Positions 1 to 22,620 of a DNA stretch of 22,620 nt are shown piece by piece. A program made the translations under genes and the position numbers. Position 1 is the stretch's first letter; each line of letters begins with the position of its first letter. The DNA is taken from positions 1 through 22,620 of the forward strand of contig KL197800.1 in assembly GCA_000697665.1 (NCBI GenBank), in the 5' to 3' direction. The stretch comes from Jaapia argillacea MUCL 33604. Lineage: Eukaryota; Basidiomycota; Agaricomycetes; Jaapiales; Jaapiaceae. The notes under the pieces are model-generated. The model saw only the letters and a list, made by a program, of their open reading frames with translations. It was not told the DNA's origin and ran no database searches.

Positions 1-300
1 AAGCGCGAGCGAATCAAGATAAGTCGAAAAGGAGTAAAGAATAACAGGCTATCCGAAGAGTAGACACTGTTTCGATAATCTCTTCAGACTCTTTACTCTA
101 GGCTTTTATATTGCCTGGCATGGGTTCCGGCCCGAACTAACCCCGGAGTACCCATGAGAAAATTCCCATCAGGAATGATATACCCGTTTCTCCATCACAG
201 CCGACTTAGGTTAGGGTTATGAGGATTGGCAGAATTGGTTACATGAGACCAAACCCTAACCCTAAGGTTGCTCTCGGCTATCCCAAAAAGGAAAGCACCT
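1..300. other. Left edge, no gene; telomere-like inverted motifs
   Basis: No convincing coding region is seen. A TTAGGTTAGGGTT stretch at about 207-219 faces AAACCCTAACCCTAA at 251-265, so the two can pair as an inverted repeat about 30 bp apart. TTAGGG is the usual basidiomycete telomere unit, but only one or two units are present on each side, so this is at best a degenerate interstitial remnant. Confidence 0.4.
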
Positions 301-2430: not shown

Positions 2431-2640
2431 GAGGACTAGGGTACAGGCACGGGTCACACCGCGGGTTCGCTGGCCAAAACCGTACCCGCAACCCTTGATA
2501 CTGCACCCTTGGAGGGTACGGGTTCAAACCCGTCTCACAACACCGACGGTGTAAGAAATACACCGCGGTGTCCATCACCGAGGGTGGAACCCGAGGGTTG
2601 ACATGTAAATGGAGCTGGATTTTACGGTTAAGAACATTCT
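2431..2640. other. Downstream flank of the hAT element, GGGT-rich
   Basis: This segment lies between array A and the end of the transposase. It is rich in GGGT/ACCC motifs in both orientations (for example GTACGGGTT, AAACCCGT, GTACCCGCAACCC), as is common for subterminal regions of hAT elements. A local inverted repeat GGTGTA/TACACC lies near 2548-2565. I could not define terminal inverted repeats or an 8-bp target duplication by eye, so the element boundary is uncertain. Confidence 0.35.
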
Positions 2641-5867: not shown

Positions 5868-6087
5868 GATGAGGATGAGTACGCGAACGCTAAGAAATCC
5901 ACCCTAAGTTGAACTCAGGGAGGATGAGCATGAGTACGCAAACGCTAAGAAATCCACCCTAAGTTGAACTTAGGGAGGATGAGGATGGGTACGCAAAAGC
6001 TGAGAAATCCACCCTAAGTTGCACTCAGGGAGGATCAGGATGGGTACGCGAACGCTAAGAAATCCACCCGAAGTTGAACTCAGGGAG
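5868..6087. repeat. Four 55-bp tandem repeats with CTCAGGG hairpins
   Basis: Units start at 5868, 5923, 5978 and 6033, with a constant 55-bp period. Each carries an inverted repeat such as CCCTAAGTTGAACTTAGGG, in which CCCTAAGT pairs with ACTTAGGG (some units have a G-T type step). The core AGTTGAACT, or AGTTGCACT in the third unit, matches other hairpins in the window. The same hairpin on the opposite strand occurs at 22059-22077 and 22278-22296. Confidence 0.9.
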
Positions 6088-6189
6088 AAGTGAGAAAGAA
6101 AGGCACGTTGCAGAACCCGGCAAGATCCGATAATGATTCTGAACCTAACCCTTTTTGGTTTAGGCGAACTTTGCGTTTATTTAGGCTCT

Positions 6190-6480
6190 TTTCAACGTCT
6201 CTCGCCAAGAGTTCAACTCTTCCTAGTCCCTGCCTCGTTTCCACTCACTCGCCGTCTTCCAAGAGTACAACTCCTGGTAGATCAGCGTACTTGGTGTGAA
6301 GCTCTCTCTTACGGGTCTCTCTCTCGCCGTCTTCCTGGAGTGCAACTCCTGGCAGATCCACGTACTTGGCCTTCTATCCTATTCGCTCACTCGCCGTCTC
6401 GCTGGAGCGTAACACTCTTACTCTTACTCTCTCTCGCCATCTCCCTGGAGTGCAACTCCTGGAGCTAACACCCTCACTTT
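6190..6480. repeat. CTGGAG-type hairpin block, left
   Basis: Hairpins lie at 6205-6223 (CCAAGAGTTCAACTCTTCC), 6259-6277, 6334-6352 (CCTGGAGTGCAACTCCTGG) and 6444-6462, with a degenerate copy near 6401. They are separated by pyrimidine-rich CTCTCTCGCCGTCTCC-like sequence and often followed by CAGATCCACGTACT. The preceding 6100-6180 segment is the reverse complement of sequence near 21925-22000. Confidence 0.8.
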
Positions 6481-6514
6481 CACCGATTCTAAGCGTCGCC
6501 TCAACACCGACAAA

Positions 6515-7705
6515 ATGCGCGCGCGCTCCGACCAGAATCGCACCCTTCGAAGAAGGTCAGCACGTTTGGTTGATCTAAGGCAAACGGAGAAGCAGGTGGG
6601 TATTTCCGTCTGATTTTGCTCAACGTATTGAGCCAAACCCTTTCAATCAGACGACGCGAACAAAGATTCGGACAGGCAGAGCGGGTGGAGAGGTGAACCA
6701 TCACGTTTCTCCATTGGTTTCCATTGCTGATCACACCTCTGCCATTTCCAAGGAGCCGTCGCTTACAGAGCAGCTGAAGGAGGCGAAGAGGCATCTCCGT
6801 GAGACCGAGAAGCAGCTTCGAGTCGAGCAGACCATTGGAGAGGCACGCCGAGAAGGTTATGCTCTGGTAGAAGGGGAGAAGAGAGAGCTGGAGGATACGT
6901 TGGGAGAGCTGGAGGGTAAGTTGGGAGAGCTGGAGGGTAAGTTGGGAGAGCTGGAGGACAAGTTGGGAGAGCTGCAGGGAGAGAATGATGAGTTGAAAGG
7001 AGGTCGAGCCGATGCAGACGTGGAACTGGAACTGAAGGTATGTCGAGTTCATTACCGCTTCCTAAAACTCACTGACGACCTTTTAACCGCCAGGTCAAAG
7101 ACCTGCTCTTGGATGGGGCCGGGTGCCTCAAATGTCAAATCGCCAAATCGGACATCTATATGTAAGTCCTGCAGATTCTCATACCTTCCGGAAGTTGATC
7201 CCTCTCCCTTAGCCTGCCGGCTTGCGGCCACATCTTCTGCTGCATATGTTTGAGGAGCCACTTCCAGACAACCCTTAGCAAATACCGGCAACGTATTGAT
7301 GCAAACTATCGTTTGCCGCCGACCACATATGAGGACGTCCGCTATCTCGTGGACGTACAATCCGACCCGGAAAAAACCAAGCAGGTTCGGGCCCAGTATG
7401 ACAATGCTAGGCGTCAGCAGCATCCGGCATACCATTGCCTGCTGTGCCATGAGGTGGTTAGAGGATGGGTGCCCGGAGGCAAACCCGTGAGGCTCCAAGC
7501 CATGGGGAAGATGATCCAGATCGCGACTTCGCTGGGAGGCGGCCCACCCCCCCCTGTGGAAGTGGAAGTGGAGAACCGTTATATGGATTGCTGGAATGCC
7601 TTCTGGCTTAACCCCATGCTATTCGCGAGGTTTCTCCCTGAGCTGGATGGCGTCCGCATACGGGTCTACGCCGAGTCCCGCTTGGAGGTTGTCTCCTGTG
7701 ATTAA
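6515..7705 (+). CDS. Coiled-coil RING-finger protein
   Basis: This is a probable ubiquitin E3-type RING protein, judged from its zinc-binding pattern. The model joins 6515-6595, 6651-7037, 7094-7161 and 7213-7705 and encodes 342 residues. All introns (51-56 nt) have GT-AG ends and keep the frame. Residues 1-27 are basic. About residues 60-155 form a coiled coil that includes four 7-residue units (LGELEGK-like). The RING pattern is C167-x2-C170-x12-C183-x-H185-x2-C188-x2-C191-x62-C254-x2-C257, with an unusually long gap before the last cysteine pair. The ATG was chosen because the 81-nt first exon equals that of the coiled-coil genes at 15300-15985 and 16583-17254. Substrate and cellular location cannot be read from the sequence. 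Ubiquitin ligase activity is inference from the RING family. Confidence 0.78.
6900..6983 (+). repeat. Four 21-bp tandem units inside the coiled coil
   Basis: The unit TTGGGAGAGCTGGAGGGTAA plus one base repeats four times with few changes. It encodes successive heptads of the coiled coil in the RING protein. Near-identity at DNA level suggests recent in-frame expansion. Confidence 0.9.
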
Positions 7706-7894
7706 CGTCATCCTGTATTTCTGTTTATCTATTTATGGCTTCGTCTCCATCATCATTTATTCTACTCATGGTTGAATGATAATTACTGGTCAACCCTCTA
7801 TTATGTCTCAGAACATTGAAGACCTTGAGCTTTTCCATGAGTGTGATCCACTGATTCTTCGGTAACCAACTCCTGCTTGGTAGTCTCCTTCTCA
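7706..7894. other. Intergenic, nothing recognised
   Basis: AT-richer sequence follows the RING gene and likely contains its 3' untranslated region. No other feature was seen. Confidence 0.5.
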
Positions 7895-8420
7895 TTTCCA
7901 TTCTCTCACCGTCTCCCTGGAGTAGAACTCCTGGCAGATCCGTGCACTCGGCGCCCTCTCTCATTGGCTCACTCACCGTCTCGGTGGAATGTAAAGCTTA
8001 CTCTCTTACTCTCTCTCTCGTCGTCTCCCTGGAGTAGAACTCCTAGCAGATCCATGTACTCGGCGCCCTCTCTCATTAGCTCACTCGCCGTCTCGCTGGA
8101 ATGTAAAGCTTATTCTCTTACTCTCTCTCTTACTCTCTCTCTCGCCGTCACCCTGGAATAGAACTCCCGGCAGATCCATGTACTCGGCGCCCTCTCTCAT
8201 TGGCTCACTCGCCGTCTTGCTGGAGTGTAAAGCTTATTCTCTTACCCTCTCTCTTACTCTCTCTCTCGCCATCTCCCTGGAGTACAACTCCCGGCAGATC
8301 CACGTACTTGGCGTGCTCTCGTATTCCCTCACTCTCCGTCTGGCTCGAATGTAACACTATTTCTCTTACTCGTTCTTTCTCTCTCCGTCTCCCTGGAGTG
8401 CAACTCCTGGCAGACCAGCG
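7895..8420. repeat. Tandem ~118-bp repeat with CTGGAG hairpins
   Basis: About 4.5 units carry hairpins at 7917-7935, 8028-8046, 8152-8170, 8277-8295 and 8392-8410, spaced 111-125 bp. Each unit pairs a hairpin (CCTGGAGT...ACTCCTGG or close) and CAGATCC with a second motif, CTCGCCGTCTCGCTGGAATG followed by TAAAGCTTA, and with TTACTCTCTC runs. The reverse-complement version lies at 21470-21900. Confidence 0.88.
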
Positions 8421-8849
8421 TTCTCTATCTCCATAATACCCAGTTCCTTCATCTGGCCTACAATAATTCCATTCCCTCCTTATTCTTCCGCTCGGAACTT
8501 GACCCTTCATTCAATACGTACAGGACTGCCCACTGTTTTTTCCTCCTGCGTTCCTTGAGCCAAGCCCTGGGTGAAATCTCTCAGTTAATATGTGAGTACC
8601 CTGACGGCTCATTCTGTGTGTGGGTTACGTCCTTCTTGACAAACGGGACAAACTGATACTTTACATCGCTCCGTGAATCTCTCTTGACGCTAATCAAATT
8701 CGTCCCTGGCTTCTCATCAGGCCGGATCCTCTTCTGTCCGGGATACAGGTGAAATCCCTGCCTGCCCTAACTTTGCCTCCCACTGGGTCCCATCCCTTAT
8801 AACCCCCAGGTCACCTCAATCTTCCACCCATCCATTCGACTTGACTGCC
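8421..8849 (+). other. Shared upstream region of a coiled-coil gene
   Basis: This segment is similar to the reverse complement of 20961-21470. Shared tracts include CAATAATTCCATTCCCTCCT, a CCTCCTGCGTTCCTT stretch and TGTGTGGGTTACGTCC. Related sequence also lies upstream of the genes at 15300-15985 and 16583-17254. It probably includes promoter and 5' untranslated sequence. Confidence 0.6.
8797..8802 (+). promoter_or_regulatory. Possible TATA element
   Basis: TTATAA lies 48 bp before the ATG at 8850. The inverted paralogue has TTATAT at the same distance (21009-21014 before its start at 20960), in the shared context CCCTTATA-CCCCCAGGTCACCTCA. Conservation in both copies supports it, but recent duplication could explain this alone. 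Confidence 0.35.
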
Positions 8850-9533
8850 ATGTCTATCAGAAGATCAACCCAAATTCTGTCTACCAGAGCCGGCTCCTCT
8901 CGACAACTCAGGCCTCTCTCTGCCCAGGCTGATCAGGACCCCCAACCACGGCCCCTGGGGAAACGTCCTCGCCTGGATTCTAAAGATAGAGTTCTTTTGG
9001 CCTCAGGATCCCAAGACCCTGAGGTGAAGGAGGAAGGACCACATGACCTTGGTTGGTGGGAGAACAGTTACAAGAGGCTTTCGATGGTCAGTGACTCAGT
9101 CTCATTTCGCTCGCTTATTTATATTTGCTAATCAGAGATGCTCTCACCCCATATGTAGCAACTGGACATCCTCATCAGGGAAAACATTCGGCTCAAGGCC
9201 AACGCAACCGACACTGATAGGACCGTCATAGGTCTTCAGGGTGCAGTGGCTCAACTGGAACTGGAGGCGGAGGAATTCCATTCGGAAAAGGAGCAACTCC
9301 TCCAGTGGAACCAGGACTTAGAGGATGAGGTCGAGAAGCTGACCGATGAGGAGCGCAGACTACTCAAGGTTCTGGAAACCCAGAAACATGAAATCACTAC
9401 CCTTAAGGATGATGATGAGCGCATGCACGACATCATGGCTGACTTGAGAGCAGATGTCGCATCTCTGGTACGTTTCTTCTCGACTTGGTCGTTTCACCAA
9501 GATCTGACCTTGCCGCCAATCTAGCGATCTTAG
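8850..9533 (+). CDS. Coiled-coil protein lacking the RING domain
   Basis: The model joins 8850-9086, 9159-9467 and 9525-9533 and encodes 184 residues. The N-terminus (MSIRRSTQILSTRAGSSRQL) is basic and is followed by a proline-rich and then acidic stretch ending near DLGWWEN. Exon 2 starts QLDILIRENIRL and forms a long coiled coil rich in Glu, Leu and Lys. The last exon adds only Arg-Ser before TAG, at the position where the RING gene enters its zinc-binding exon. It is paralogous to the gene at 20284-20960 and more distantly to 15300-15985 and 16583-17254. The first donor is GTCAGT, weaker than GTAAGT in the paralogue. No function is assigned; a dimerising or regulatory partner of RING-bearing relatives is a possibility only. 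Confidence 0.62.
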
Positions 9534-9959
9534 GTCCTTGGCTCCGGGTCAGGAGGGGTAGCTAGATGAACACTAGTAGATTACCTTATATTTGTTCATC
9601 CCCCTTCTTGTTGTTATTGATCTGGACGGCTTTCACCTGGACTGGCACTATAAGTCTCAACTCAAGTACCATTTGGGTTGTTGGCTACGGGTGTGACATG
9701 GTCAACTACAATTCATATTCGTAATCAATCTAACATGCTTCTATATTTAACATAAGATAAGACCAGGAAGGTCGGCCAGCCAGTCAGAGAGAATGGACCT
9801 CAAATCGGACTCTGGTGCCGCGTGATAGATGAAAGACATCAACGCTTACCTCAGTCACCATGACCGCCAGTATGTTATCCATGGGAGAACATCGCGAACA
9901 TTGAGGTGGCTCTCTTCCAACCTTCAGAGACAGACGACAGAGGACCAACGTGATAAGCG
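9534..9959. other. Intergenic, half of an inverted repeat pair
   Basis: About 9590-9800 matches the reverse complement of about 19140-19385, sharing TTCATC, CCCTTCTTGTT, TTTCACC, GTTGTTGGCT and GACATGCTTCT blocks in the same order. No coding region is supported. Confidence 0.6.
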
Positions 9960-10760
9960 ACGAAGAGTTATACTCTTCGATGTGAGCGTTGGCGAGATCA
10001 GGAAGTTTGGGTACGGGAGAAAGACAGTCGACCAAGAGCGTGGATCAAAGGTTTTCGAGGACGTGAGGAGATAAATAAACCAAGGACAAAGGCTTGTGGC
10101 AAGAAATTCAAAGAGTTGGACTCTTGGACACAAGAACGTCGGCGAGATGAGAAAGACAGTCGACCAAGAGCGTGGATCAAAGGTTTTCGAGGACACGAGG
10201 TGATAAATGAACCAAGGACAAAGGCTTGTGGCGAGAAATTCAAAGAGTTGGACTCTTGGACACAAGAACGTCGGTGAGATGAGAAAGACAGTCGACCAAG
10301 AGCGTGGATCAAAGGTTGTCGAGGACATGAGGAGATAAATGAACCAAGGACGAATGTCGAGAAATTCGTGACGAAGAGTTGGACTCTTCGACACAAGAAC
10401 GTCGGCGAGATGAGAAAGACGGTCGACCAATAGCGTGGATCAAAGGTTGTCGAGGACATGAGGAGATAAATGAACCAAGGACAAATGTCGAGAAATTCGT
10501 GACGAAGAGTTGGACTCTTCGTAAGATAATCGCAAGATGAGCAAGACAGCCGACCAAGAGTATGGATCAAAAGTTGTAGAGGACATGGGGAGATAAATGA
10601 ACCAAAAGGACAAATGTCGAGAAATTCGTGACGAAGAGTTGGACTCTTCGACACAAGAACATCGGAGAGATCGTGGAGAAGAGAGAGACAGGGGCGAGGA
10701 GACAACAACGAACATCCAGCGACACAAGACGAAGAGTTGGACTCTTCGACTCAAGATAAT
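9960..10760. repeat. Tandem ~130-bp array with CGAAGAG hairpins
   Basis: Hairpins lie near 9962, 10109, 10239, 10372, 10501, 10630 and 10729, about 100-147 bp apart and mostly about 130. Typical forms are CGAAGAGTTGGACTCTTCG and the less perfect CAAAGAGTTGGACTCTTGG. The spacer contains GACACAAGAACGTCGGCGAG, AGTCGACCAAGAGCGTGG and GAGGAGATAAATGAACCAAG blocks. Long minus-strand open frames here are a by-product of the repeat. The same hairpin in the other orientation recurs at 18581-18872. Confidence 0.9.
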
Positions 10761-11450
10761 TGCAAGATCTCGGACAAGCGGAGTATCGAAGGGTGGCGAT
10801 GCATCGGCGAGCCACGATTTCCGAGTTTGTCTGTGTTTGTGTTTGATCTCCGACAATCGCGGATCAAAGGTGATCAACAATGGGTGGCGATGCAACGAGG
10901 CCACAGCGTGCGATTTTGTTTGTACTTGTGCTTGTCTTGTGGCCTGTTCCTGGACTACAGTACTTACAGAACTTGGCGCTTGCTTTCCTTCCAACATCAC
11001 CATCAATCTTCAGCCTCGGATAGTTCAACTATCCCAGGTGTTTCTTCTCCATCTTCATCTCTTGCGATCCTTACATCTCGCTGTCCCTCTGTCCAACCTC
11101 GGATAGTTCAACTGTCCCAGGCGTGTCGAATCCTTTGCCATCGTATTTCGGGATCCCAGTCCGGCACCAACGATCCATCGCCGTCCTTGCTCATCAAGTC
11201 GCCGACGTTCTTTTCCTTGACGAGGTTTACTGAACGTCCACCGTGCTATCACGTGGTGTCAGGTAAGCTCTCATCCTCTTCAATGCGTCCATCAGCCCCT
11301 CACGACCCGTATAACATAGACATTGTTAGACGGTAGACGTCGGTTTTCTGGGGTTTTCTCGCTTTGCGTTTGTAGTTGAACGATAGCGTCCTGGTAAGTC
11401 TCATATTTCCTCCCTCTTTACCCTCCGGCACTTTCTGACGGCTTCACCAG
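10761..11450. other. Upstream region of the proline-rich gene, with repeats
   Basis: A GGGTGGCGATGCA-led segment at about 10791-10850 is repeated at about 10883-10940. Two hairpins, GGATAGTTCAACTATCC (11018-11034) and GGATAGTTCAACTGTCC (11101-11117), share the AGTTNAACT core with other blocks but have their own arms. Possible 5' exons of the following gene may lie here: an 18-nt segment at 11376-11393 lies between an acceptor-like TTTGTAG and a GTAAGT donor, and 11394-11450 fits a 57-nt GT-AG intron. Confidence 0.5.
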
Positions 11451-13559
11451 GTTGAGTGGTTTTGGTGGGGCTCCCTTGGGAACTACAGCACACCCAAGAC
11501 CAACTGCGATTTTTTGATCATCCCCAGTCAAGACGAACTTCAACCCTGGCTGCAACGTCCACGTCCCCAACTCCCGAGGGACTCCCATCCCTACGCCAAC
11601 CGACCAACCCGTCTCCCATCGCCAACACCTATCAGAGCCCCAACGGCTCCTGTCCAGTTTGTCAATGTGGATCAGCCCATGCATGATCCCTCCAATACTG
11701 CCGGTTCTGATCATCCCCGGCCACCCAGCCCTTCAGCAGGTCCCTCTCCACCAAAACCCGGCCCTGCCACCCCCATGGCAGGGGAGACATACATCCAGTT
11801 CTTCGCCCGGCGCCGTGTTTATTCAGAATATATGATGACGTTGCAAACCACAGCTGGTGAGAGGTGCAGGTCTCGGTACAACAACTCTCTGAGGTTTCCC
11901 GAGCCTGGTCGCCAAGGGGCCAGGGTTTATGAATGGACAGTTGGTGACGATGGTGGTCTCGTCAGGGTGAGCATTCCCCGGGATGCCGTCCCGACCGCAT
12001 GGTCATCATTCCCTTCGGAACACCTCGTCTTCGACCCATTCAGGAATGAGTGGGATGTCTGTGTAGAGTTGGATCCACGTGCTTCTGTCGACACTCCGCC
12101 CTCCTCGCCAATCCCCCGAACACTGTCACCTCTCCCTGCCTACTTGCCGCCCCCACCAGGGTACCCCAACCCCCCTCCCTATCTTCCCCCACCCTCTCAT
12201 TCGTTGGACCCTCAGATCGTTTCCAGTCATGTCACACCCCTCATTCCGTTGCAGTCCATCCATGCCGATTTGGCTCACATGGACAACGGCCCTCCCATCA
12301 CCAATCCTACCTTCGATCCCTTTGAGGATCATCTCTATCATCGCTATGGGTTCACCAATGAGAATGAACCACCTCAATTAGCCGCCAACTCGAACTTCCG
12401 GTGGCAGGACCTCGCACCAATATATGGGTATGATGTTCGGGTGATTAACATCCCTGGCCTAGTACCCCCTCCCAACAATCGCATACCCCGCATCTCCATC
12501 TTCACGACATTCATGGTTTCTGGTCAACCTTCCCACCCCTCCATCCAAACGGACCTAAACCCAAACGTGATGGAACCCTTCCAATTGGATAGCGTTGGCC
12601 TGAGACCCTCATTGGAGAGGCACCTCACCAGGTTACGTTCTCCAAGGAGAACCACGAGAGACATGAGTAACCATGTGAACGCTCTGCCTGCCCCTCCACC
12701 CAGCACACCAGTCTTTATGATTCGGTTTCCCTCCTGGTTGAGGGATGACGGAGAACACCCATCCTGGGACATCGTCTTCGAGAACATGGCCTCACCCATT
12801 CAATGCATTCGCGCGTTGGGCACTCAAGTTAAGCCTCACCACATGGCCCTTTGGTTGGTCCAAAGAGGGATACCCTTCCGCACCGTCATCACGATGCCAA
12901 CGTTGCAGCACGTGCCCCCTGAATACCCGTACCGACGTCCAGTTGGTCTTGGCTGGCGTATGTCCTCAGATGCACCCGTTCGTCCGGAGGACTACCCCGT
13001 CTATGAAGCCACCAGGAACCAGTTCCTTACCCAGTCACCCCGCGCTCGAGCGGCTTTATTAAAAGGTGGCATCTTGTGGAGGCTCTCCCTTCAGGCTTTC
13101 GGTTATGACTCCGTCCTGGAGGGTCCCTCTCGTCAGGTCTTTAGCATGGGCAGCGGTTATCTCGACCCCAACACCAGCCTCTCTTGGTGGGATGACGACC
13201 TCACCGAAGGGGAGATGATGTTGATATGCGGGACGTACATCATTGGTATAAGTGAGTCTGTCCCCCTAAAACTGATCTGTTTGATTATCACTAACAACCC
13301 CTCAGACAGAAAACACGATGAGCACGTGTCCTGGTGGCCCAAGCAAATTACCTGGGAAGCCGGGTATTTGGACGCTGGGTATTGGACTCCTACAGCAGAG
13401 AGCTGGTTCCAGGCTCGGATGCGGAGCATCAGGGATGGCACAGCCAAGCCGAAGAATGCCACCCAATGGCTGCAGGTGTTGAAGGTGTCCAAGAAGGCGA
13501 ACAAGCTCGTTCGTGCAAATGAAGAGTTGCATAGCCTGTTTGTCGAGGCACGGTTTTAG
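11451..13559 (+). CDS. Proline-rich protein of unknown function, 5' end uncertain
   Basis: A single long frame runs from an acceptor-like TTCACCAG at 11450 to TAG at 13559, giving about 682 residues after removing a 60-nt intron (13246-13305; donor GTATAAGT, branch CTAAC at 13291, acceptor CCCTCAG). The intron length is a multiple of three and it contains no stop, so retention would add 20 residues. The first 100 residues are proline-rich, and another proline-rich stretch (YLPPPPGYPNPPPYLPPP) lies around residue 225. The second half is more globular, with aromatic motifs such as PSWLRDDGEHPSWDIVF, LSWWDDDLTEGEMM and HVSWWPKQITWEAGY, and a basic C-terminus. No signal peptide, membrane segment or catalytic motif was recognised. 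In-frame ATGs lie well downstream of 11451, so the true start may be in an upstream exon. Codon use looks genuine. I do not recognise the family. Confidence 0.72.
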   Translation, partial: VEWFWWGSLGNYSTPKTNCDFLIIPSQDELQPWLQRPRPQLPRDSHPYANRPTRLPSPTPIRAPTAPVQFVNVDQPMHDPSNTAGSDHPRPPSPSAGPSPPKPGPATPMAGETYIQFFARRRVYSEYMMTLQTTAGERCRSRYNNSLRFPEPGRQGARVYEWTVGDDGGLVRVSIPRDAVPTAWSSFPSEHLVFDPFRNEWDVCVELDPRASVDTPPSSPIPRTLSPLPAYLPPPPGYPNPPPYLPPPSHSLDPQIVSSHVTPLIPLQSIHADLAHMDNGPPITNPTFDPFEDHLYHRYGFTNENEPPQLAANSNFRWQDLAPIYGYDVRVINIPGLVPPPNNRIPRISIFTTFMVSGQPSHPSIQTDLNPNVMEPFQLDSVGLRPSLERHLTRLRSPRRTTRDMSNHVNALPAPPPSTPVFMIRFPSWLRDDGEHPSWDIVFENMASPIQCIRALGTQVKPHHMALWLVQRGIPFRTVITMPTLQHVPPEYPYRRPVGLGWRMSSDAPVRPEDYPVYEATRNQFLTQSPRARAALLKGGILWRLSLQAFGYDSVLEGPSRQVFSMGSGYLDPNTSLSWWDDDLTEGEMMLICGTYIIGISESVPLKLICLIITNNPSDRKHDEHVSWWPKQITWEAGYLDAGYWTPTAESWFQARMRSIRDGTAKPKNATQWLQVLKVSKKANKLVRANEELHSLFVEARF

Positions 13560-13980
13560 CCAATCGTTTGGGTCTTTCATTTGGGTCGTTCATGCTTGGG
13601 AGCCAATTTTTTTTAACATTATCACAAATTTGTCGAATCAATGCAATCTATCATCGTCCTTCCACTCCGATATGAGTCAGTGAGCTCCTGACAGATAAGA
13701 CTAATTCATCCAGATCAACCGACGATACCATGGGCATCTAGGTCAACCGTCATGAAGAATAGTTGATGGCTAGGATGCGTGAACCAGGTAATCCTTCCAT
13801 GACCCAACCTTCTCCTTTAAGGTTGTGAGAGGTGTCCGGCATTTGCTCGACCCATCAGTTCATCTCCCTCTTCCATCCTGAGTTTCTTTCCTCCATACAT
13901 GATAGCTGATTCCAAAGTATAACTCGCAAGCCATCTATGAACTAACATGCGGAACAAGCCGTCAGAGGAATCTGCAGAGG
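13560..13980. other. Intergenic, nothing firm
   Basis: This follows the proline-rich gene. A GTGAGAGGT...GCATTTGCTCGACC stretch at about 13826-13852 resembles sequence near 18980-19030. No gene was seen. Confidence 0.45.
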
Positions 13981-15120
13981 ACTCGCACCTGGTGGGCGTC
14001 CAAGACGCCCATGGAGGAGAGGGGTTTGCAGGCAACATAATCACTAAGTCACAAAGTAGCATTGTATATGGACACTACATAACTAACAGAGGGCAGATGA
14101 ACTGTACCTGGTGGGCGTCCAAGACGCCCATGGAGTAGAGAAGGGTTTCACAACACAATCACTGAGTCACGGGGTAGCATTCCATATAAACTACATAACC
14201 AATACAATCTCACATTCCCTATGGATCGGCCATGATCTAAGAGACAAGCATGATATGGACGTCCAAGACGGCCATGGAGTAGGGAGGAATATGCCCAGAC
14301 ATCGGTATTGTCTCATAGACTACACAACCACCTGTGACCTGTAAGACAATCAGGGTAGGGGCGTCTGAGAGGGCCATTGAACAGAGAGACTTGAAGGGGT
14401 TGTACTCACCAATTAGTACGAAATAGAAGTATATGGGTGTAACCCAGAAGGAGCCCTCCCACCTGGTAGGCGTCTTGGAAGGCCTCAGGAAGAGAGATAT
14501 GTAGGAAAGATACTCACCATTTCAGATTGTAGTCCTTTGTGCATGCAGGAAGTAGCCACGATCAAGTCAGAGTAGGGACCCAACCACCCTCTACAAGACA
14601 AGTAGGAGATGGGCGTCGAAGACGGCCATGGACTAGGAAGAATTGAGACTCATGCCTGGCCCACGTCTTGGACGGGCATAGAAGGAGGGTTATCAAATCG
14701 TCATTCCAGTAGTCATGTAACTCTTCAATACTAAAAGATCTATCCATTACTCCCTTCTAATGCCGATGAATGCGTTGTCTTGCATGTGATGTATGACCAT
14801 ATGACTACATGGCCGAGTTCGACAGAAGAGACCCATTTCACCCTCAAGAATGCCCTTTCTTTTAGAAAGTTTGAAAGGATCTGGCACTGTCACAAGCTGC
14901 TGTATTCTGGGGTGTCATGTCATACAAGACGAACATATGCTACTCTGTTCTGTCACAACCCACTACCATCAATGAGACAAGTACGTCATGGGCCTCCAAG
15001 ACGGCCGTGGAGCATAGAGGGTTATGTGGAGGGAGCACTTATTAGAGTGTATGAAAAGACAGCATATAGGAGCAACCAGAAAGGACTCAAACCTGGTGGG
15101 CGTCTTGGATGGCCATGAGA
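13981..15120. repeat. Array B: GGGCGTC hairpins, homologous to array A
   Basis: Hairpins start near 13994, 14113, 14256, 14358, 14469, 14610, 14660, 14988 and 15095. About 14250-14700 aligns with about 1420-1850 of array A in the same orientation, including hairpins and the sequence between them, with many substitutions. The donor-like TACTCACC motif is conserved at 14403 and 14511. Two intron-like segments (14463-14517 and 14339-14409) flank a 53-nt exon-like segment, 14410-14462; the array A equivalent is also 53 nt. Confidence 0.85.
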
Positions 15121-15299
15121 AGCGTGATTTGTGGAGGACTCACTCAATGCAGAAATATTCATCTACAGCGGTTCTCATTCTCTTTAGATGGGCAAACCTG
15201 TTGGTTGGAGAGAGCGTCCTAGCGTGCTACTGTAATATAAGACCCGCTTCACTACAAAAATCCTAGACATATGACCAGGGTTAAGCAGGTCTCACATGC

Positions 15300-15985
15300 T
15301 TAGTCCTGAAATACGGTTAGCAGGGGCAGAAAGAGAAAGGAGAAAAACATACGGATAAGATGAAACCCATCTCAAGGTTATCAATCGTCTTCTTCAAAGC
15401 ATGATTTTCCAAGGAGAGGATATGAATCTTATCCCTGGTCTCCTCCACAATCGATTTCAACCGAAGATTGGCCGCCTTCAACCTTCTGATCTCTTCCTCT
15501 GACTCGCCACTCTTCTCACAGTACAGATCATACTCAGCTTCCATATCCCTGGCTTCAGTCTCTAACCCGGAGTTTCTGTACCTGACCACCTTGAGGGACA
15601 ACTTCAACGAATCCCTTTCCTTTAACAACGTCAATGAACAGGAGAATAAAAAGATAGGGTTAGACGGCAAAGATAGGGTTAGACGCACGGCAATCAGCTC
15701 GTCTACCCTCGCCTTCCACAACTCCTCCATGTCCTCATAACCACTCACAGCTCCACCCTCACCACGGTCCTCTATGTCATCCTTGCCATCGAAGAGCTAT
15801 AGAAGAAGATCAGATGTAATCCCCATATGACTAGGGTGAGGGAAATTGACATTATCATCGCATGGGCCCTTGAGAGAAGGAGGAGGGAGAAGCTGGTCCC
15901 TTACCAGAGACACCCCTCTTCGTACACGACGAGAGCTCCCCTTTTGAGTAACAAGAACTCCATCAGACTGCACTGCGTTATCCAT
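15300..15985 (-). CDS. Coiled-coil protein lacking RING (tandem copy 1)
   Basis: The model joins 15905-15985, 15689-15796, 15353-15619 and 15300-15305 and encodes 153 residues. Exon 1 is 81 nt (27 codons), as in the RING gene, and ends in a basic segment (GSSRRVRRGVSL). Exon 2 is acidic (FDGKDDIEDRGEGG). Exon 3 is 267 nt, begins ERDSLKLSLKVVRY and forms a coiled coil. The final exon adds one Asp and then TAA. The last intron (15306-15352, 47 nt) has a TGCTAAC branch site. The start was chosen from exon-length agreement with relatives; an in-frame upstream ATG also exists. It is the tandem paralogue of 16583-17254. Function is unknown; coil-mediated dimerisation is likely. Confidence 0.65.
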
Positions 15986-16490
15986 GAGCAACGCTATCTT
16001 ATGGTTGGGAGGAGGATGCTGAGACGATGTAGCAAGGACTTCCAAGGTTATAAAGGAAGTGTCCACGTACGAGGTGTGATTAGGCAGGCGCAGAGAGCAT
16101 CAGTCAGACAAGGCTGATTATGGAGGGACGAGAAGAGGTGAGGCAAGAGAGGAGCCATCCCGTTGGAAGCCAGGGCCGATCTGTGTCCACGAACCGGCAG
16201 TTCGGAGGGACAGAAGATGCGACTGATTTCTGGAAGTAGTGATAAAAATGAAGAGCAGGTGAGGTCACCATGGGATGCGGGGGACAGACTCTCGGCTCCT
16301 GCTCAAGCAGATGAAGTGTGTCTTACTTGTCATGAGAGGTTGGGACACGTAACCCACATGCAGAGCAACCGGTTAGATGTTTGTGACGGAACTGGGAGTA
16401 TTCACCCAGGGCTTGGCTCAGAGACACGACTCCGGGAAAAAGAGTTGGTGGCAAAGTAACCGACAGATTCCCTGCTGTACAGTAAACCGG
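15986..16490 (-). other. Shared upstream region of tandem copy 1
   Basis: This is the 5' region of the minus-strand coiled-coil gene. It is shared with 17255-17725 and recognisably with 20961-21400 (ACGTAACCCACA, GGGCTTGGCTCAGAGACACG-like, GAAGCCAGGG tracts). A TTTATAA (minus strand, 16048-16054) lies about 63 nt before the ATG and is conserved at 17318-17324 in copy 2. Confidence 0.5.
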
Positions 16491-16582
16491 TGAATGAAAG
16501 GGTGCTACTGTAATCTAAGATCTATTCACAAAAACCCTGAACATGGGGTGCAGGGGTCACAGACCGAGAAGCTTGCACGTGC

Positions 16583-17254
16583 TCAACCCTGAAATATAGT
16601 TAGCAGGGGCGGAGGGAGGATGAGAGAGAAACATACGGAAGAGATCAAATCCGTCGCCTGGTCATCAACCAGCTTCTTCAAATCTTGGTTGTCCATCAGG
16701 AGACCCTGAAGCTCTGCCCTCTTGTCGTCCAGACTCATCTTCAATCGACGGACGGTCAGCTTCAGCTTCGTCACCTCTTCCAGTGCCTCATCACGCTGGT
16801 CACAGATATACTCGCAGTCAGCCTGGGATTCCCCGGCCGTACGCTCCAGACATGAATTTTGCTTCTTGACCTTCCTGAGGGACAGCTTCAAGGAATCCAG
16901 TTGCTTGAATGATGTCAATGAACAGAAGACTGAAAAGATTCAGAAAAACGCACGACCGTGAGCTTGGCTACCTTCTGGTTCAAGGACACCTCCACATTCT
17001 CCTGAACCCCCACAACTCCATTCTGGCCACCGTCCTCTACATCATCCTTGACATCTGTTGTAAAGACCTATAAAAAGAGATCAGATGTAGTTCCATAGAC
17101 GAGCAGGAGGGAACTTGACATGATCATCTCGTGAGGGCTTGAGGGAAGGAGGGGGGAGCAGCCTGTCCCTTACCGGAGAAACGTGTCTTCTTACAGGACG
17201 AGAGCTCCCGGTTTGAGAAATAAAAACTCTGCTAGCTTGAACTAGGCTATCCAT
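16583..17254 (-). CDS. Coiled-coil protein lacking RING (tandem copy 2)
   Basis: The model joins 17174-17254, 16954-17067, 16637-16903 and 16583-16588 and encodes 155 residues. Exon 1 is again 81 nt (27 codons) and exon 3 again exactly 267 nt, starting QLDSLKLSLRKVKKQ. Exon 2 is acidic (TTDVKDDVEDGGQN). The last exon adds Gly and then TGA. Introns are 106, 50 and 48 nt; the last has TGCTAAC followed by TATTTCAG. The coil includes four cysteines without zinc-finger spacing. All exons are open, which argues against a dead copy. Function is unknown, as for its neighbour. Confidence 0.65.
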
Positions 17255-17997
17255 GAGCAACGCAATCTTATGGTTGGGAGGACGATGCTGAGATGATTTA
17301 GCAAAGACTTCCAAGGTTATAAAGGACATGTTCACGTACGAGGTGTAGTTAGGGCAGGCCCAGTGACCATCGGTCAGACAAGGCTGATGATCGAGGGACG
17401 AGAAGAGGTGAGGCGAGAGAGGAGCCATCCCGTTGGAAGCCAGGGCCGATCTGTGTCCACGAACCGGAGTGACAGAAGATGCGACTGATTTCTGGAAATA
17501 GTGATAAAAAATGAAGAGCCGGTGACGTCACCGTGGGATGGGGGGGACATACTCTCGGATCCTGCTCAAGCAGATTAATGTGTCTGTCTTGTCATGAGAG
17601 GTTGGGAGACGTAACCCACACCTAGAGCACCAGCTCGGGATGTCTGTGGCAGAACTGGGAGTTTTCACCGAGGGCTTGGCTCAGAGACACGGCTCTGGGC
17701 AAAAGGGTTGGTGGTCAAGTACGTGGTCATTGAACGGTCAGGTTCCGTGCTGTAAAGTAAACGGGGAAATGAAATCTTTGATTAGAAGCAGAGAGGAGGG
17801 AGCTTGACGTATGGGGACTCACCGTTGATTTCCACTGAAGTCTAGCATGGAAAAAAGGGGGAACGTGATGGCCTTTCCCCTGTGAGTCGAAATGGTGGTT
17901 AGATTCACGCTTAGACTGAGGAACGTGTGAAGACTTACCCCGATTCAAGAAAGATATCGCACATCAGGGCTTTTGTATGAAGCCAGATAGACGCCTG
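17255..17997 (-). other. Upstream region of tandem copy 2; possible extra exon
   Basis: To about 17725 this repeats the upstream region of copy 1. On the minus strand, 17823-17879 (57 nt) lies between an acceptor-like CTCACAG and a donor GTGAGTCC, and another donor-like GGTAAGTCT lies near 17935. These could be 5' exons of the coiled-coil gene or a separate remnant. The evidence is splice-like signals only. Confidence 0.3.
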
Positions 17998-18337
17998 GGC
18001 GACTTGTACGCCCACCAAGAGTTACGTTCGTGGAGGAGGAACCAATATTACATGGCATAAAGTGGGAGCATAACAACTCGTCCTGTGAGGGTGGTTGGAT
18101 GCATGCAATGACCGACAAACGCGTCAAGCCTCACCCTGGTTTACTGAGAGCGTCATGTATTTCTCGTTGGCACTCTTGCATAAAGCAGGTACGAAAGCTC
18201 CATTTGAGAGGGTTTGGATGACTTGAGAATCCACCAAGAGTTGTACTCTTGGTGGAGGAACGAATGCTGCGCGGCACCAGAGATCGATTTGAGGATTGGC
18301 TGAGTCGAGAATCCGCCAAGAGTTGTACTCTTGGGGG
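17998..18337. repeat. Mixed hairpins, including a 25-bp palindrome
   Basis: GGGCGACTTGTACGCCC at 17998-18014 recalls the array A type with a different centre. At 18231-18255 an exact inverted repeat has 11-nt arms and a TGT loop (core CCAAGAGTTGTACTCTTGG). A second copy at 18313-18337 has one or two arm changes. Both are preceded by GAGAATCC and lie 82 bp apart. Confidence 0.85.
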
Positions 18338-18580
18338 ACGGACGGCTATGCAGAACGATGGGGACGGGAGAGACTGTGGCGGTAGCAACGTGGGAGCGCC
18401 AAAGTCCACATGGTCTTTGCATCATTATTGATCGCGGGATGTATCTGTAATGTTGTCTGTTATTTGCACATATATATGACGATGTTTCCAAATTGGGCTA
18501 TGTTGAACTTAGCCCAAATTTCGGACGACATTTCGCCCCGTCCACTGCTCCTCAATCGTCTCTCTCACCGCTGCTTGTGT
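18338..18580. other. No gene seen
   Basis: This is short intergenic sequence between hairpin groups. A local GGGCTA...TAGCCC inverted repeat lies near 18494-18519 (AATTGGGCTA facing TAGCCCAAATT). Confidence 0.5.
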
Positions 18581-18872
18581 CGAAGAGTACAACTCTTCGT
18601 CATGAATTCCGGTCTTGGTCCTCCATCGTCATCTCCTCCTCAAACTTATGGATCCGCCCTTCTCCTCAACCGCCGTTCTCCGTAACACCAACCTCTGCGA
18701 TCTTGCCAACACCCGTGTCGAAGAGTGTAACTCTTCGTCAAATATCCCGCTCACCCATTATGGTCTAGAACTTCACCTCACCTTTCACCTTCCAGAGTCG
18801 AGGAGTACAACTCCTCGTCATGTATTGTCTCTTACCAGTCCTTGGCATCACTTCTGAAGACCTCAACTCTTC
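18581..18872. repeat. CGAAGAG-type hairpins, right arm
   Basis: Hairpins are CGAAGAGTACAACTCTTCG (18581-18599), CGAAGAGTGTAACTCTTCG (18719-18737), CGAGGAGTACAACTCCTCG (18799-18817) and a degenerate copy (18855-18872). They match the 9960-10760 type on the opposite strand, including the flanks TTGTGT before and TCATGAATT after. In the third copy both arms changed together (A to G and T to C), keeping the pairing. Confidence 0.85.
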
Positions 18873-19400
18873 GTCACTTAACCCTATGACCCTTTCCAAG
18901 GGCAAACTAAGGTATTTATCTCCGTTGGGTCTCCCAGCTTTATCACCATCCCTTCCCCTTTCTATTTGGCATACTGGTTCTCGAGCATTTGCCCGACCCA
19001 TGTTTGCAGTGAGAGGTATCGAGCATTTGTGCGACCGATCCGTTTCCCCCCCAGAGCCCTTTTTGATATCTTTTACACGTCACAGCCTTTCATGTCAGAT
19101 GGCCCACTAACTTTCCTCATTTCTTTCCCAGGGAACTGGAGACCACTCCATTCATTCTCTCTGACCGGCTGGCGGACCCTCCTGGTCTTATATTAAATAC
19201 AGAAGCATGTCAGATGGACGAGGTGTATGGTTTGACCCTTGTCTAATATGAATTGAAGTTGACGGCATCTGCCCTGTCACACCCGTTCACCATTCATGAG
19301 CCAACAACCTAATTGATACTTGGGCTGAGATGTGTAGTCCGGGTGAAAGTGGCCCAGATCAAGAATAACAAGAAGGGTGATGAACGCAAAGTAAGCATGG
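18873..19400. other. Intergenic, half of an inverted repeat pair
   Basis: About 19140-19385 is the inverted counterpart of about 9590-9800. No coding region is supported. The rest shows nothing recognisable. Confidence 0.5.
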
Positions 19401-20283
19401 AACATGTCGTTTAGTACCATGACAGCAACTAGTGTATTGCGGATGAGATGCCTGCCTGCAGAGAGAGAGACGAGAGTTCCGATAGAGGGTTGAAGTCTTG
19501 ATAGTCCGATGGAGGAGGAATCCTAGCTAGCTAGGGTTATGAGTCGAGGAGAGAAGGTGAGATGAGAGATGAGCCGCATGATTGTGGCTACTTTAGTAGT
19601 GGGTCTTGTACCGTCTTATGGTTTACAGGCGCTGCCAATTTTTGGCTCGATTACAAAGCTGAGACTTTTCTTTTGTCTGACCTCCAAAACTTAAGGGCGT
19701 TTCCGTGGCCATCCTCATCGGCGACGATTGTCTGTGCTCAGTAAGTGCCAACCCTCGCCTCCGCTCGTATGAGATCTGCTGTCCCTCCATGGATCATATC
19801 TCTCTTGGTGGGGGCATCCTCCTCAGCATGCTGCCGCCCCATTCTCTGTCCGTCAGCTTCGCCCACAAGCACAGCATTCCAACGTTCAATCTCTTCCGTC
19901 CCATCATTGTTTACACCCGGGAAGACATTTATCAGTCAACCTTCCCTTAGACCGAGCTGCTGTCGTCGTTTACTATTCATTCACATGCTATACTTATGTA
20001 TTTGTTCCATCGTCTACTGTGTGTCGTTTGAGAGAGAATCTGGTATCCGTTCCTTTGGTTTTCTTCAAGATGTCGACGTGAAATTGCTATGTTTATAAAC
20101 CCTGGTAGCTGGCTCTTGCGGCACATAAGGCCTTTCATGTTATACTTTACAGGCGCTCTGCCAGATTTTTGCTCAATTACAGAGCTGAGACTTGTCTTTT
20201 GTCTGAGCTCTAAAACTTATGGGCGTTTATCTGGCTATTGTCGTACATGATGATTGTCCGGGAGTTAATAATCACTAGACATG
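19401..20283. repeat. Non-coding region with a ~125-bp direct repeat
   Basis: About 19617-19740 and 20141-20265 are direct copies sharing TTACAGGCGCT, TTTTTGCTC- or TTTTTGGCTC-like, ACAAAGCTGAGACTT, CTTTTGTCTGA and GGGCGTTT blocks. Short open frames exist here, but none shows a recognisable motif. A purine-rich stretch lies around 19460-19570. Confidence 0.6.
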
Positions 20284-20960
20284 CTAGATACCTCTCTGGA
20301 ACGTAGAACCGTGGACAGGAGGTCGCTACGTGAACAATAAGGTCAGATCTTGATGAAAGGGCTCAGTCGGAAACAAACATACCAGAAGGGCGACATCTGC
20401 CCTCAGGTTGGCATTGATGTCCCTCTGATTCTTCAGGACAGTGCCTAGCCTGCCCTCCTCATCGGTCAGCCTCCCAACCTCATCCTCTAGGTCATCGATC
20501 TGCTCCATAAACTGTTGCTTTTCAGAAACCAAATCCTCCACCTCCTCTTCAAGTTGTGCCACCGCCCCTTGAAGACCTGTGACCGTTCGAGCAGTGTCGG
20601 CTGCGTTGAGCTTGAGACGAGTATTTTCCGTGCCGAGGATGTCCAGTTCCTATATATGGGGTGAGAAAGACGGAAACATCTCTGATTAGCAAATATGGAG
20701 AAGGAAGAGAAACGGGATGAGGTACTTACCGTCGAAAGCATCTTGGCTCTGTTCTCCCACCAGGCAAGGTCATGTTCTTCGTCCTGGGTCACCTCAGGGT
20801 CTTGGGATCCTGAGGTGAAAAGACCTATATCCAAACGAGGGCGTTTCCGCAGGGGCCGTGGTTGGGGGTCCTGATCAGCCTGGGTAGAGAGAGGCTTTCT
20901 GAGTTGGCGTGAGGAGCCTGCTCCGGTTGACAGAGTTTGACTTGATCTTCTGATGAACAT
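20284..20960 (-). CDS. Coiled-coil protein lacking the RING domain, inverted paralogue
   Basis: The model joins 20730-20960, 20383-20649 and 20284-20325 and encodes 179 residues. It begins MFIRRSSQTLSTGAGSSRQL and has the same proline-rich and acidic linker (DLAWWEN) as the gene at 8850-9533. Exon 2 is exactly 267 nt, as in the two tandem genes, and forms a heptad-rich coil (LEEEVEDL, LEDEVGRLTDEEGRL). Introns are 80 and 57 nt, with GTAAGT and GTATGT donors. The final exon adds 13 residues of different sequence, so the coil is conserved and the C-terminus is not. It is the minus-strand partner of 8850-9533 in the large inverted duplication. No function is assigned. Confidence 0.65.
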
Positions 20961-21470
20961 GGGTGGTAGAGTCAGATGAATGGGCGTAAGACTGAGGTGA
21001 CCTGGGGGATATAAGGGATGTGACAAGCACAAGGTGACGTTAAGGCAGGCGGAGCTCACCTGTATCCTGAAAGGAAGGGGAATGAGGTGGAAGAGGATCC
21101 CATCTGATTAGAAGCCAGGGTTAATCTGACTCCATCAACGGTCCGGAGGGGGGACAAAGATGTAACTAGCTTCCAGACCATACTAAACATAGCATGAACA
21201 CAGATGCACGGAGCGATGCAAGGCACAAGTTTGTCCGGTTTGTCATGAGGAGTTGTAGGACGTAACCCACACACAGAATGAGCGATCAGGGTGCTCGCAT
21301 ATCAACTGAGAGTGTTCACCGAGGGCTTGGCTAAGGAACGCAGGAGGAAAAAGACGTGGGCAGTTACGTACATATTCAATCAAAGGGTCAAGTTCCGTAT
21401 CGAAGATAAGGAGGGAATGGAATTATTGTAGGACCGATGAAGGAACCGGGCATACGGGGATTGAGAACGC
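20961..21470 (-). other. Shared upstream region of the inverted paralogue
   Basis: This is the reverse-complement counterpart of 8421-8849 and is related to 15986-16490 and 17255-17725. It carries ACGTAACCCACACACAGAAT and GGGCTTGGCTAAGGAACGCA tracts. A possible TATA element lies at 21009-21014, about 49 nt before the ATG. Confidence 0.55.
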
Positions 21471-21900
21471 CGGTCTGCCGGGGGTTGCAATCCAGAGAGA
21501 CGCAGGAACAGAGAGTCAGAGTAGGAGTAAGAGAAATAGTGACACACTCCTGCGAGACGGCGAGTGAGCCAATAAGAGAGAGTGCCGAGTACTGGGATCG
21601 GCCAGGAGTTGCACTCCAGGGACACGGTGAGAGAGAGAGTAAGAGAGAGTAAGAGAAATAGTGTTTCGCTCTAGCGAGACGGCAAGCATGGGGACCAGCC
21701 AGGAGTTGCAGTCTGGGGAGACGGCGAGAGAGAGAGAGTAAGAGAATGAGCTTTACACTCCAGCGAGACGGCGAGTGAGCGAATGAGAGAGGGCGTCAAG
21801 TATGCCGATCTGCAAGGAGTTGTACTCCTGGGAGACGGCGAGAGAGTGGGAACGAGGACGAGACTAGCATGCATATCAGCCAGGAGTTAAACTCCAGGTA
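21471..21900. repeat. CTGGAG-type hairpin block, right (inverted)
   Basis: Hairpins are at 21602-21620 (CCAGGAGTTGCACTCCAGG), 21699-21717 (degenerate), 21813-21831 (CAAGGAGTTGTACTCCTGG) and 21880-21898 (CCAGGAGTTAAACTCCAGG), with a weaker copy near 21477. Between them lie GAGACGGCGAGAGAGAGAG-like purine runs, the complement of the CTCTCTCGCCGTCTC runs at 6190-8420. Confidence 0.85.
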
Positions 21901-22039
21901 GATGAATGCGAGGGAAGATTGAGAAAGAGTCTAAATGAACGCTAAGTTTCACTTAACCAAAAAGGGTTGGGTTCGGAAACATAATCGGATCTTGCCGCTT
22001 TCTGCAGCTGTCTCTCTTCCGAGTCTTTGTTACCTCTGC

Positions 22040-22340
22040 TTTCTTTCTCCCATCTCCTCCCTGAGTACAACTCAGGGTGGATTTCTCAGTGTTCACGTCC
22101 CCAGCATTCAGTCTCTTCACGGCCCTCTCAGTTCCAAACGAGTCAGCTCCTCGACACTCTTAATTGCCCCCTACGGGTCGCCATATTTTTTCTTCCATTC
22201 ATCGTCTTTCTCTTATTCAATACTCTCCACTCCATTTCATTACCTCTGCACCGCTTCTACCGACTATCTTCATTCTCCCTGAGTACAACTTAGGGTGGAT
22301 CACTCCGGCGTTCAGGTCTCTTCACGGCCCTCTCAGCAGT
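22040..22340. repeat. CTCAGGG-type hairpins, right (inverted)
   Basis: CCCTGAGTACAACTCAGGG (22059-22077) and CCCTGAGTACAACTTAGGG (22278-22296) are each followed by TGGAT and then TTCAG...TCTCTTCACGGCCCTCTCAG, so a unit of about 219 bp is partly repeated. They are the opposite-strand counterpart of 5868-6087. Confidence 0.8.
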
Positions 22341-22620
22341 ACCGGCACCGTCCAAGGCTTTATTTTCCAGAGTTCTTGAACGCTCGCCCTCCAATCAATC
22401 GAAAGGGCGTCTTGAATAGACCATGGATGCCATGATGACTGCCACCGTAAGTACCGGGTATTACTCCTTCACAATCAACCCCGGTTGAATAGAGGACGCT
22501 TTGCACAGGGTATGCCCACTCCTCAAGCCACACACAAATACCTGCCCCCTTTGCCACGATTCCGTATGTTCACTTTTTTACATCAAATTCAACCTCCCCC
22601 CCCCCCCCCCCCCCCCCACC
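22341..22620. other. Right edge with a 22-bp C run
   Basis: No convincing gene is seen. An uninterrupted run of 22 C occupies 22596-22617. It may be a natural homopolymer or an assembly or sequencing artefact. Confidence 0.6.

Follow-up and report, generated by a model that had tools for sequence, protein, structure and literature searches.

In the iron-responsive element and the histone stem-loop, each carried by the mRNAs of several genes and read by a protein, the apex is fixed and the stem mainly needs to pair, and the former also has a fixed irregularity in its stem. Both are named in the abstract of PMC2413145. REP sequences and REPINs are described, in the excerpt of PMC3116915 used here, as short imperfect palindromes of several types with compensatory changes that form inverted doublets with a spacer. 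The hairpin at the 3′ end of Helitrons is given as 16–20 nt with a short loop in the section cited from PMC4289320, and a screen restricted to Ascomycota has described covariation-supported non-coding structures of fungi, some of them in untranslated regions (PMC8216456, as excerpted). The window analyzed in this study, the entire 22,620-bp contig C92 of Jaapia argillacea MUCL 33604 (43.7-Mb assembly, 95 contigs), contains a family of small hairpins that share one core and differ in their arms. J. argillacea is a wood-inhabiting relative of mushrooms. The hairpins suggest a common control signal of a new kind, not a mobile element, and the reading that we prefer, giving it close to an even chance, is that they are copies of one cis-regulatory stem-loop in the promoter or leader regions of a few multi-copy J. 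argillacea gene clusters.

The core, AGTTGNACT/AGTNCAACT, is present in 27 copies in the window, 26 within 5868–22296 and one at 2215; an earlier note on this DNA had claimed at least 20 hairpins with a common centre. The arm types that it named are found among these hairpins, and the four cores that it listed as broken have the loops TAT (9961), GTA (18719), TAA (21880) and AGA (7916). Stretches around matches on other contigs are designated by L-numbers: L025 on C18, L026 on C20, and L028, L029, L030, L041, L042 and L043 on C63. The unit was defined from 50 hairpins, a set that leaves out as degenerate L025 4509, 4729 and 4950, L026 4701 and 4911, and window 21698, and as paralogous copies two in L029 and L041 1826; a match at L029 4602–4624 (18.2 bits), whose centre differs, was excluded from the counts. 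Watson-Crick pairing occurs in 43–50 of the 50 at pairs 1–5 and 7–8 and in 34 at pair 6. Pair 9 is paired in only 8, with CC in 18 and TT in 17, and pairs 10–12 are paired in 36, 37 and 35, respectively (p 0.0005 each); at pairs 13–16 of the same hairpins, pairing is not above that in shuffles. The unit is a 27-nt stem-loop comprising an NCA triloop, eight pairs, a usual pyrimidine-pyrimidine mismatch and three further pairs. The apex, AGTNCAACT, is nearly invariant while pairs 4–8 change together, and the third base of the loop, A, and the AC that follows it are invariant in 41 aligned copies. The pair-9 mismatch with pairs 10–12, together with the outward orientation and the near confinement to five contigs described below, are absent from the earlier note.

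The stem covaries around the fixed apex. In the alignment, 91.7% of cells are paired compared with 76.4% after shuffling, and 48 cells carry a double change compared with 16.3, values reached in none of 500 shuffles, which ignore the relatedness of the copies. Weaker measures, pairs with a double change (5 compared with 3.6) and further pair types (12 compared with 9.7), were reached by 34 of the 500. The degenerate copy at window 21698–21722 was included in alignment A1 and left out of A2 because the aligner had displaced it. When the partner column is slid by 1–3 positions, pairing falls to 27–53%; a slide of +1 still has a covariation score of 0.234, compared with 0.382 in the true register. 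Because many copies stem from tandem arrays and segmental duplications, one representative of each arm type was tested. Among 13 distinct arm types, which are not fully independent of each other, 55 of 65 positions are paired (null mean 30.6, maximum 46 in 5000 shuffles), and without the decayed copies of C18 and C20 the remaining 11 types give 48 of 55 (shuffle maximum 44). One arm type unseen in the window, TGAGGAGT TCA ACTCCTCA, also conforms, with three perfect copies on C63; the search pattern had left pairs 5–6 free. The earlier observation that arm changes are matched on the opposite side is borne out both per cell and across the 13 arm types. Its feared alternative, descent of all copies from large duplications, explains part of the copy number but leaves the existence of distinct and still paired arm types unexplained.

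A related possibility, which we consider unlikely, is that the hairpins have no function: a few promoter copies would have been spread by duplication and recombination, and template-switch repair of quasi-palindromes would keep the arms complementary. Tandem arrays and segmental duplications are indeed plentiful, and the CpG-depleted relics on C18 and C20 still show hairpins. The flanks of the hairpins argue the other way. In three groups of copies defined by arm type, the 27 nt of the hairpin are far better conserved than their surroundings at 24–60 nt: (i) the TGAGG type at five C63 loci, 94% identical as compared with 28–30%; (ii) the CCTGG type in five copies, 85% as compared with 24–30%; and (iii) the CGAAG/CGAGG type in six copies, 83% as compared with 28–31%. 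Identity at 14–23 nt is 31–57% in the three groups. Because copies were grouped by arm type, some of the likeness within the inner 19 nt is built in, which favors a functionless origin, but pairs 9–12, which had no role in choosing the copies, are 95, 65 and 66% identical, respectively, so that hairpins including these pairs outlast their flanks in all three groups. Repair by template switching would also be expected to remove the pair-9 mismatch and, in the CCTGG type, that at pair 6, yet both are kept, nor would functionless descent account for the strict orientation. The stem covaries and the hairpin outlasts its flanks, and the earlier suggestion that something acts on the hairpin itself is supported by both results.

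Several of the C63 hairpin loci are old paralogous promoter-like regions with hairpins at equivalent places. In Blast comparisons among them, several pairs match over just 28–45 bp, at the hairpin, whereas L030 (near 1350) aligns with L041 and with L042 over ~150–230 bp at 66–71% identity, hairpin included. The sequence TGACGTCA lies 47–85 bp from the nearest hairpin in five of the seven C63 hairpin regions (L028 and L042, and the three closely similar copies L029, L041 and L043). Between L041 and L043, identity is 93% through the left hairpin and as far as ~46–78 bp short of the right hairpin, and the arm types of their right hairpins differ. This pattern fits the swapping of promoter halves, and the edge of a mobile unit is not seen in it.

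The orientation of the hairpins was followed by the strand on which the loop reads NCA, in a table that takes in the copies left out of the set of 50 except L025 4509 and window 21698. All 10 close strand switches (gaps of 85–287 bp) run from minus to plus and are divergent, whereas the six convergent, plus-then-minus switches have gaps of at least 1,569 bp. In the minus-then-plus order, the NCA strands point outward. The 10 divergent switches correspond to about five independent cases, since one block type accounts for four of them and one C63 repeat for three. Clusters with a single orientation (window 7916–8410, window 2210, C63 at 49.4k, 115.9k and 118.6k, and C59) are uninformative on direction.

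A fixed apex, a paired but variable stem and a set mismatch are what would be expected if a protein reads a hairpin of RNA or of single-stranded DNA. Under the preferred reading as a cis-regulatory stem-loop, the sense strand would carry three pairs, the usual Y.Y mismatch, eight pairs ending in AGT, the loop NCA and then the complement, with the apex sequence fixed and the lower stem mainly needing to pair. Such units often flank a promoter-like core on both sides, 1–7 per side and pointing outward; the core would be the promoter and the outward strand the one transcribed. The hairpin may then work as RNA in the leader of divergent transcripts, where a protein reading the apex would set their translation, stability or early elongation. 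Action as RNA in the leader is favored, with moderate confidence, because of the fixed apex, the changing but paired stem and the set mismatch, since in a homodimer site the half-sites would stay the same. In agreement with this, six of six tested hairpins fold as predicted as RNA (z −2.55 to −6.25).

The homodimer alternative supposes double-stranded palindromes bound by homodimeric transcription factors, the arm types being those of paralogous factors and the half-sites changing in step since each monomer reads the same sequence. It is rather unlikely in our view. There are several sites per promoter side, those on C63 often near TGACGTCA, and the unpaired cells have no clear preference for G.U over A.C. 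The half-site sequence is kept at pairs 1–3, which hardly vary, and differs between arm types at pairs 4–8. However, a symmetric dimer site would not be expected to have a fixed apex with changing paired flanks, a usual mismatch at pair 9 followed by pairs 10–12, an asymmetric NCA centre or an outward orientation.

Several observations count against the preferred reading. On the sense strand, G.U and A.C occur in 8 and 6 cells at pairs 1–8 and in 13 and 7 at pairs 10–12, counts that do not tell RNA from DNA. Pairing at pair 9 (8 of 50) is not below the expectation from column composition (5.7 when shuffled), so the claim is that both sides tend toward the same pyrimidine. At pair 6 the CCTGG type retains a T.T mismatch, and in the CCTTG type both pair 5 and pair 6 are mismatched. 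The sequence TGACGTCA was not found in the hairpin regions of the window and is present in two of nine control stretches; among 8–9-mers common to the promoter-like centres it is restricted to those of C63, and none is convincingly shared with those of the window. Array readings aside, no open reading frame (ORF) of at least 120 aa lies near the hairpins at 9961–10748 leftward or at 18581–18817 rightward, and in L030 the coding ORFs closest to the hairpins point toward them. Elsewhere in the window, judged by eye, the ATG at 6515 begins ~52 nt after the last plus-strand hairpin of the 6205..6462 cluster, that at 8850 is ~440 nt downstream of the 7916..8410 hairpins, that at 22423 is ~128 nt past the 22059..22295 hairpins, and the minus-strand ATG at 20960 has the 21602..21898 hairpins ~640 nt upstream. 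An extended form of the reading, which we consider decidedly unlikely, is a self-contained RNA regulon in which divergent transcripts of lineage-specific clusters would be tagged on both sides by the 27-nt stem-loop, and an RNA-binding protein dedicated to it, perhaps a product of these clusters, would read the apex.

The family is nearly confined to five contigs and is not distributed genome-wide. The pattern RAGTTGNACTY occurs 571 times in the genome and its reversed control 621 times, which is background (~0.3 per 22.6 kb), as compared with 25 copies in the window; about half of the sampled contig starts read N, so that genome counts may not cover the whole assembly. A genome-wide superfamily was rejected because over the full assembly the core shows no enrichment. 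Perfect hairpins with arms of at least 6 and a 3-nt loop number 23 in the window (15 of the core family, 5 of array A and 3 of neither) compared with a mean of 3.8 in five dinucleotide shuffles, whereas counts for loops of 0–2 and 4–8 nt are near or below the shuffled means. With arms of at least 7, there are 18 three-nt-loop hairpins in the window compared with 4 in ~97 kb of readable starts of other contigs. The 19-nt pattern YSNNGAGTNCAACTCNNSR, which is blind to arm types without GAGT/ACTC, has 35 places in the genome compared with 6 for its reversed control, and 30 of the 35 are on five contigs (C92, 15; C63, 9; C20, 3; C18, 2; C59, 1); the remaining five, on other contigs, have by eye 0–2 of the four outer positions paired. 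For GGAGTNCAACTCC there are 27 places compared with 6 in the control, and for AAGAGTNCAACTCTT with up to one mismatch 26 compared with 30, the 11 exact ones being 10 on C92 and 1 on C25. Singletons on C1, C9, C13, C20 (280k), C24, C25, C36, C38, C83 and C76 (L031–L039, L044), with 5–6 of 8 arm pairs, were taken as chance, as were 10 exact matches to CCTGGAGTNCAACTCCTGG in IMG/VR, 8 of them in two recurrent contexts and every locus with 1–2 cores. A model search gave no match up to E 1 in the C63 stretches L045 and L046 (15.8 kb) and one weak match (16.2 bits) in nine control stretches (90 kb); the lowest of its 34 members in the window is the AAATTGGGCTATGTTGAACTTAGCCCAAATTT hairpin (20 bits). 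The copies on C18 and C20 are related to the window blocks at 5.8–8.7 kb and 21.2–22.6 kb. The CpG observed/expected ratio is 0.31 in L025 and 0.07 in L026, as compared with 0.71 in the window and, in the nine control stretches, 0.90–0.97 in seven and 0.46 and 0.64 in the other two; these stretches look like decayed copies because they are CpG-depleted, and the depletion suggests methylation-driven decay there.

The earlier note had also proposed REP-like transposition as a single strand. We regard movement of such hairpins by an HUH-type transposase, as REP/REPIN doublets or Helitron ends, as very improbable. The arrangement in inverted doublets with a spacer recalls REPINs as outlined in the excerpt of PMC3116915, the matches between C63 loci limited to 28–45 bp at the hairpin would suit a moving unit, and the genome has 17 Helitron domain matches. 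None of these 17 listed matches is on C92, C63, C59 or C20, however, and the C18 match lies ~680 kb away from the hairpins. The Y1_Tnp domain (PF01797) of Y1/IS200-type transposases was not found in the assembly, where genes split by exons could be missed, while 5 of 14 control genomes match it. CTRR follows within 16 nt of the hairpin in 7 of 50 cases in the sense and 4 of 50 in the antisense direction, as compared with 8.2 by chance, and without an excess of it a Helitron end was rejected. There is no genome-wide spread, and homology runs through the left hairpin of L041 and L043 without a boundary. With no Y1 domain found, no CTRR enrichment, no genome-wide dispersal, and copies in matching positions of paralogous promoter-like regions, that proposal is not upheld. 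A tRNA B-box was also considered and dropped by eye because N varies; ARAGORN (bacterial code) gave no tRNA.

Hairpin clusters of the window (positions in the window; strand is that on which the loop reads NCA, where noted)
Feature	Position	Strand	Remark
Lone CCTGG-type hairpin	2210..2228	-	inside array A, outside the range first reported
Four CCCTRAGT-type hairpins	5902-5920, 5957-5975, 6012-6030, 6067-6085	-	55-bp tandem array; NCA on -
Centre between outward-facing -/+ hairpins	6086..6204		putative promoter-like core
Four hairpins with CCAAG/CCTGG arms	6205-6223, 6259-6277, 6334-6352, 6444-6462	+	NCA on +
Five CCTGG-type hairpins	7916-7934, 8028-8046, 8152-8170, 8276-8294, 8392-8410	+	three with AGA loop
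Seven CGAAG/CCAAG-type hairpins	9961, 10109, 10241, 10372, 10503, 10632, 10730 (to 10748)	-	five in 132-bp tandem array; NCA on -
Two CGGAT-type hairpins	11017-11035, 11100-11118	+	upstream of 681-aa ORF (11514-13559); NCA on +
Two CCAAG-type hairpins (18230..18334)	18234-18252, 18316-18334	-	first with 12 perfect pairs; NCA on -
Longer-armed relative AAATTGGGCTATGTTGAACTTAGCCCAAATTT	18490..18521	-	one near-apex pair broken
Three CGAAG/CGAGG-type hairpins	18581-18599, 18719-18737, 18799-18817	+	loop GTA in second; NCA on +
Three CCTGG/CCAGG-type hairpins	21602-21620, 21813-21831, 21880-21898	-	loop TTA on - strand in third; NCA on -
Two CCCTGAGT-type hairpins	22059-22077, 22277-22295	+	NCA on +

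The hairpins of array A (window 300–2450 and 13980–15115), TGGGCGTC[CAA]GACGCCCA, have the same 8-3-8 geometry and a different apex; their 16-mer GGCGTCCAAGACGSCC has 10 occurrences in the genome, 6 on C92 and 4 on C15, compared with 0 for the control. The 681-aa ORF at 11514–13559 has no Pfam family and has distant relatives in Pleurotus pulmonarius and Coprinopsis marcescibilis, and its region has DNA matches on C59 and C63. An ORF with a hAT dimerization domain is on the minus strand at 2648–3265. A coiled-coil gene region is duplicated in tandem without hairpins (15293–16499 and 16576–17774, 76% identity), the second copy carrying TGACGTCA at 17523. The dispersed repeat at 19587–20143, with partial matches of 68–91% identity on 14 other contigs, is possibly a transposon fragment, and the poly-C run at 22596–22617 probably marks where the assembly stops. 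On C63, L028 encodes a 328-aa protein (241–1227) without a Pfam domain that has 115 database matches, including its own record, two other J. argillacea records and many in Suillus, Lactarius, Pisolithus and Trametes; L043 has a 424-aa ORF with DUF6830 (2671–3945), which we take to resemble Plavaka-type transposases.

If the preferred reading holds, this would be a regulatory hairpin family with covariation support in a mushroom-forming fungus, with a precise and testable consensus of apex, mismatch, stem length and orientation. The family could be found from a single genome because the paralogous promoter-like regions serve for comparison. As DNA it would be an obligatorily self-complementary promoter element, which would be unusual; as RNA it would be added to the few mRNA stem-loops that several genes share. 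No Rfam family is above cut-off in the window, L028, L030, L043 or L040, and up to E 0.5 the single match, at window 11917–12011, is far below cut-off and not at a hairpin. No matching fungal element was seen in the open-licence PMC papers searched. The structural RNAs of Ascomycota are alike in their covariation support, and in the excerpt of PMC8216456 none is a repeated promoter hairpin. The Helitron 3′ hairpin, as characterized in the cited section of PMC4289320, is similar in size and short loop but differs in that the Jaapia loci have many hairpins each and no excess of CTRR. REP/REPIN sequences with their RAYT share with the Jaapia hairpins the palindromes, compensation and inverted doublets set out in the excerpt of PMC3116915, and all 10 close switches are divergent; yet in several clusters a side has more than one hairpin, and at some loci all hairpins share one orientation, and Jaapia is a eukaryote in which Y1_Tnp was not found and the hairpins are nearly confined to five contigs instead of being dispersed over the genome. 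The iron-responsive element and the histone stem-loop have another loop and geometry, and the Jaapia hairpins, known from the sequence of one genome, stand in outward pairs. What they have in common with those elements is a fixed apex, a stem that mainly needs to pair and the sharing of one hairpin by several genes, and, in the case of the iron-responsive element, also a fixed stem irregularity.

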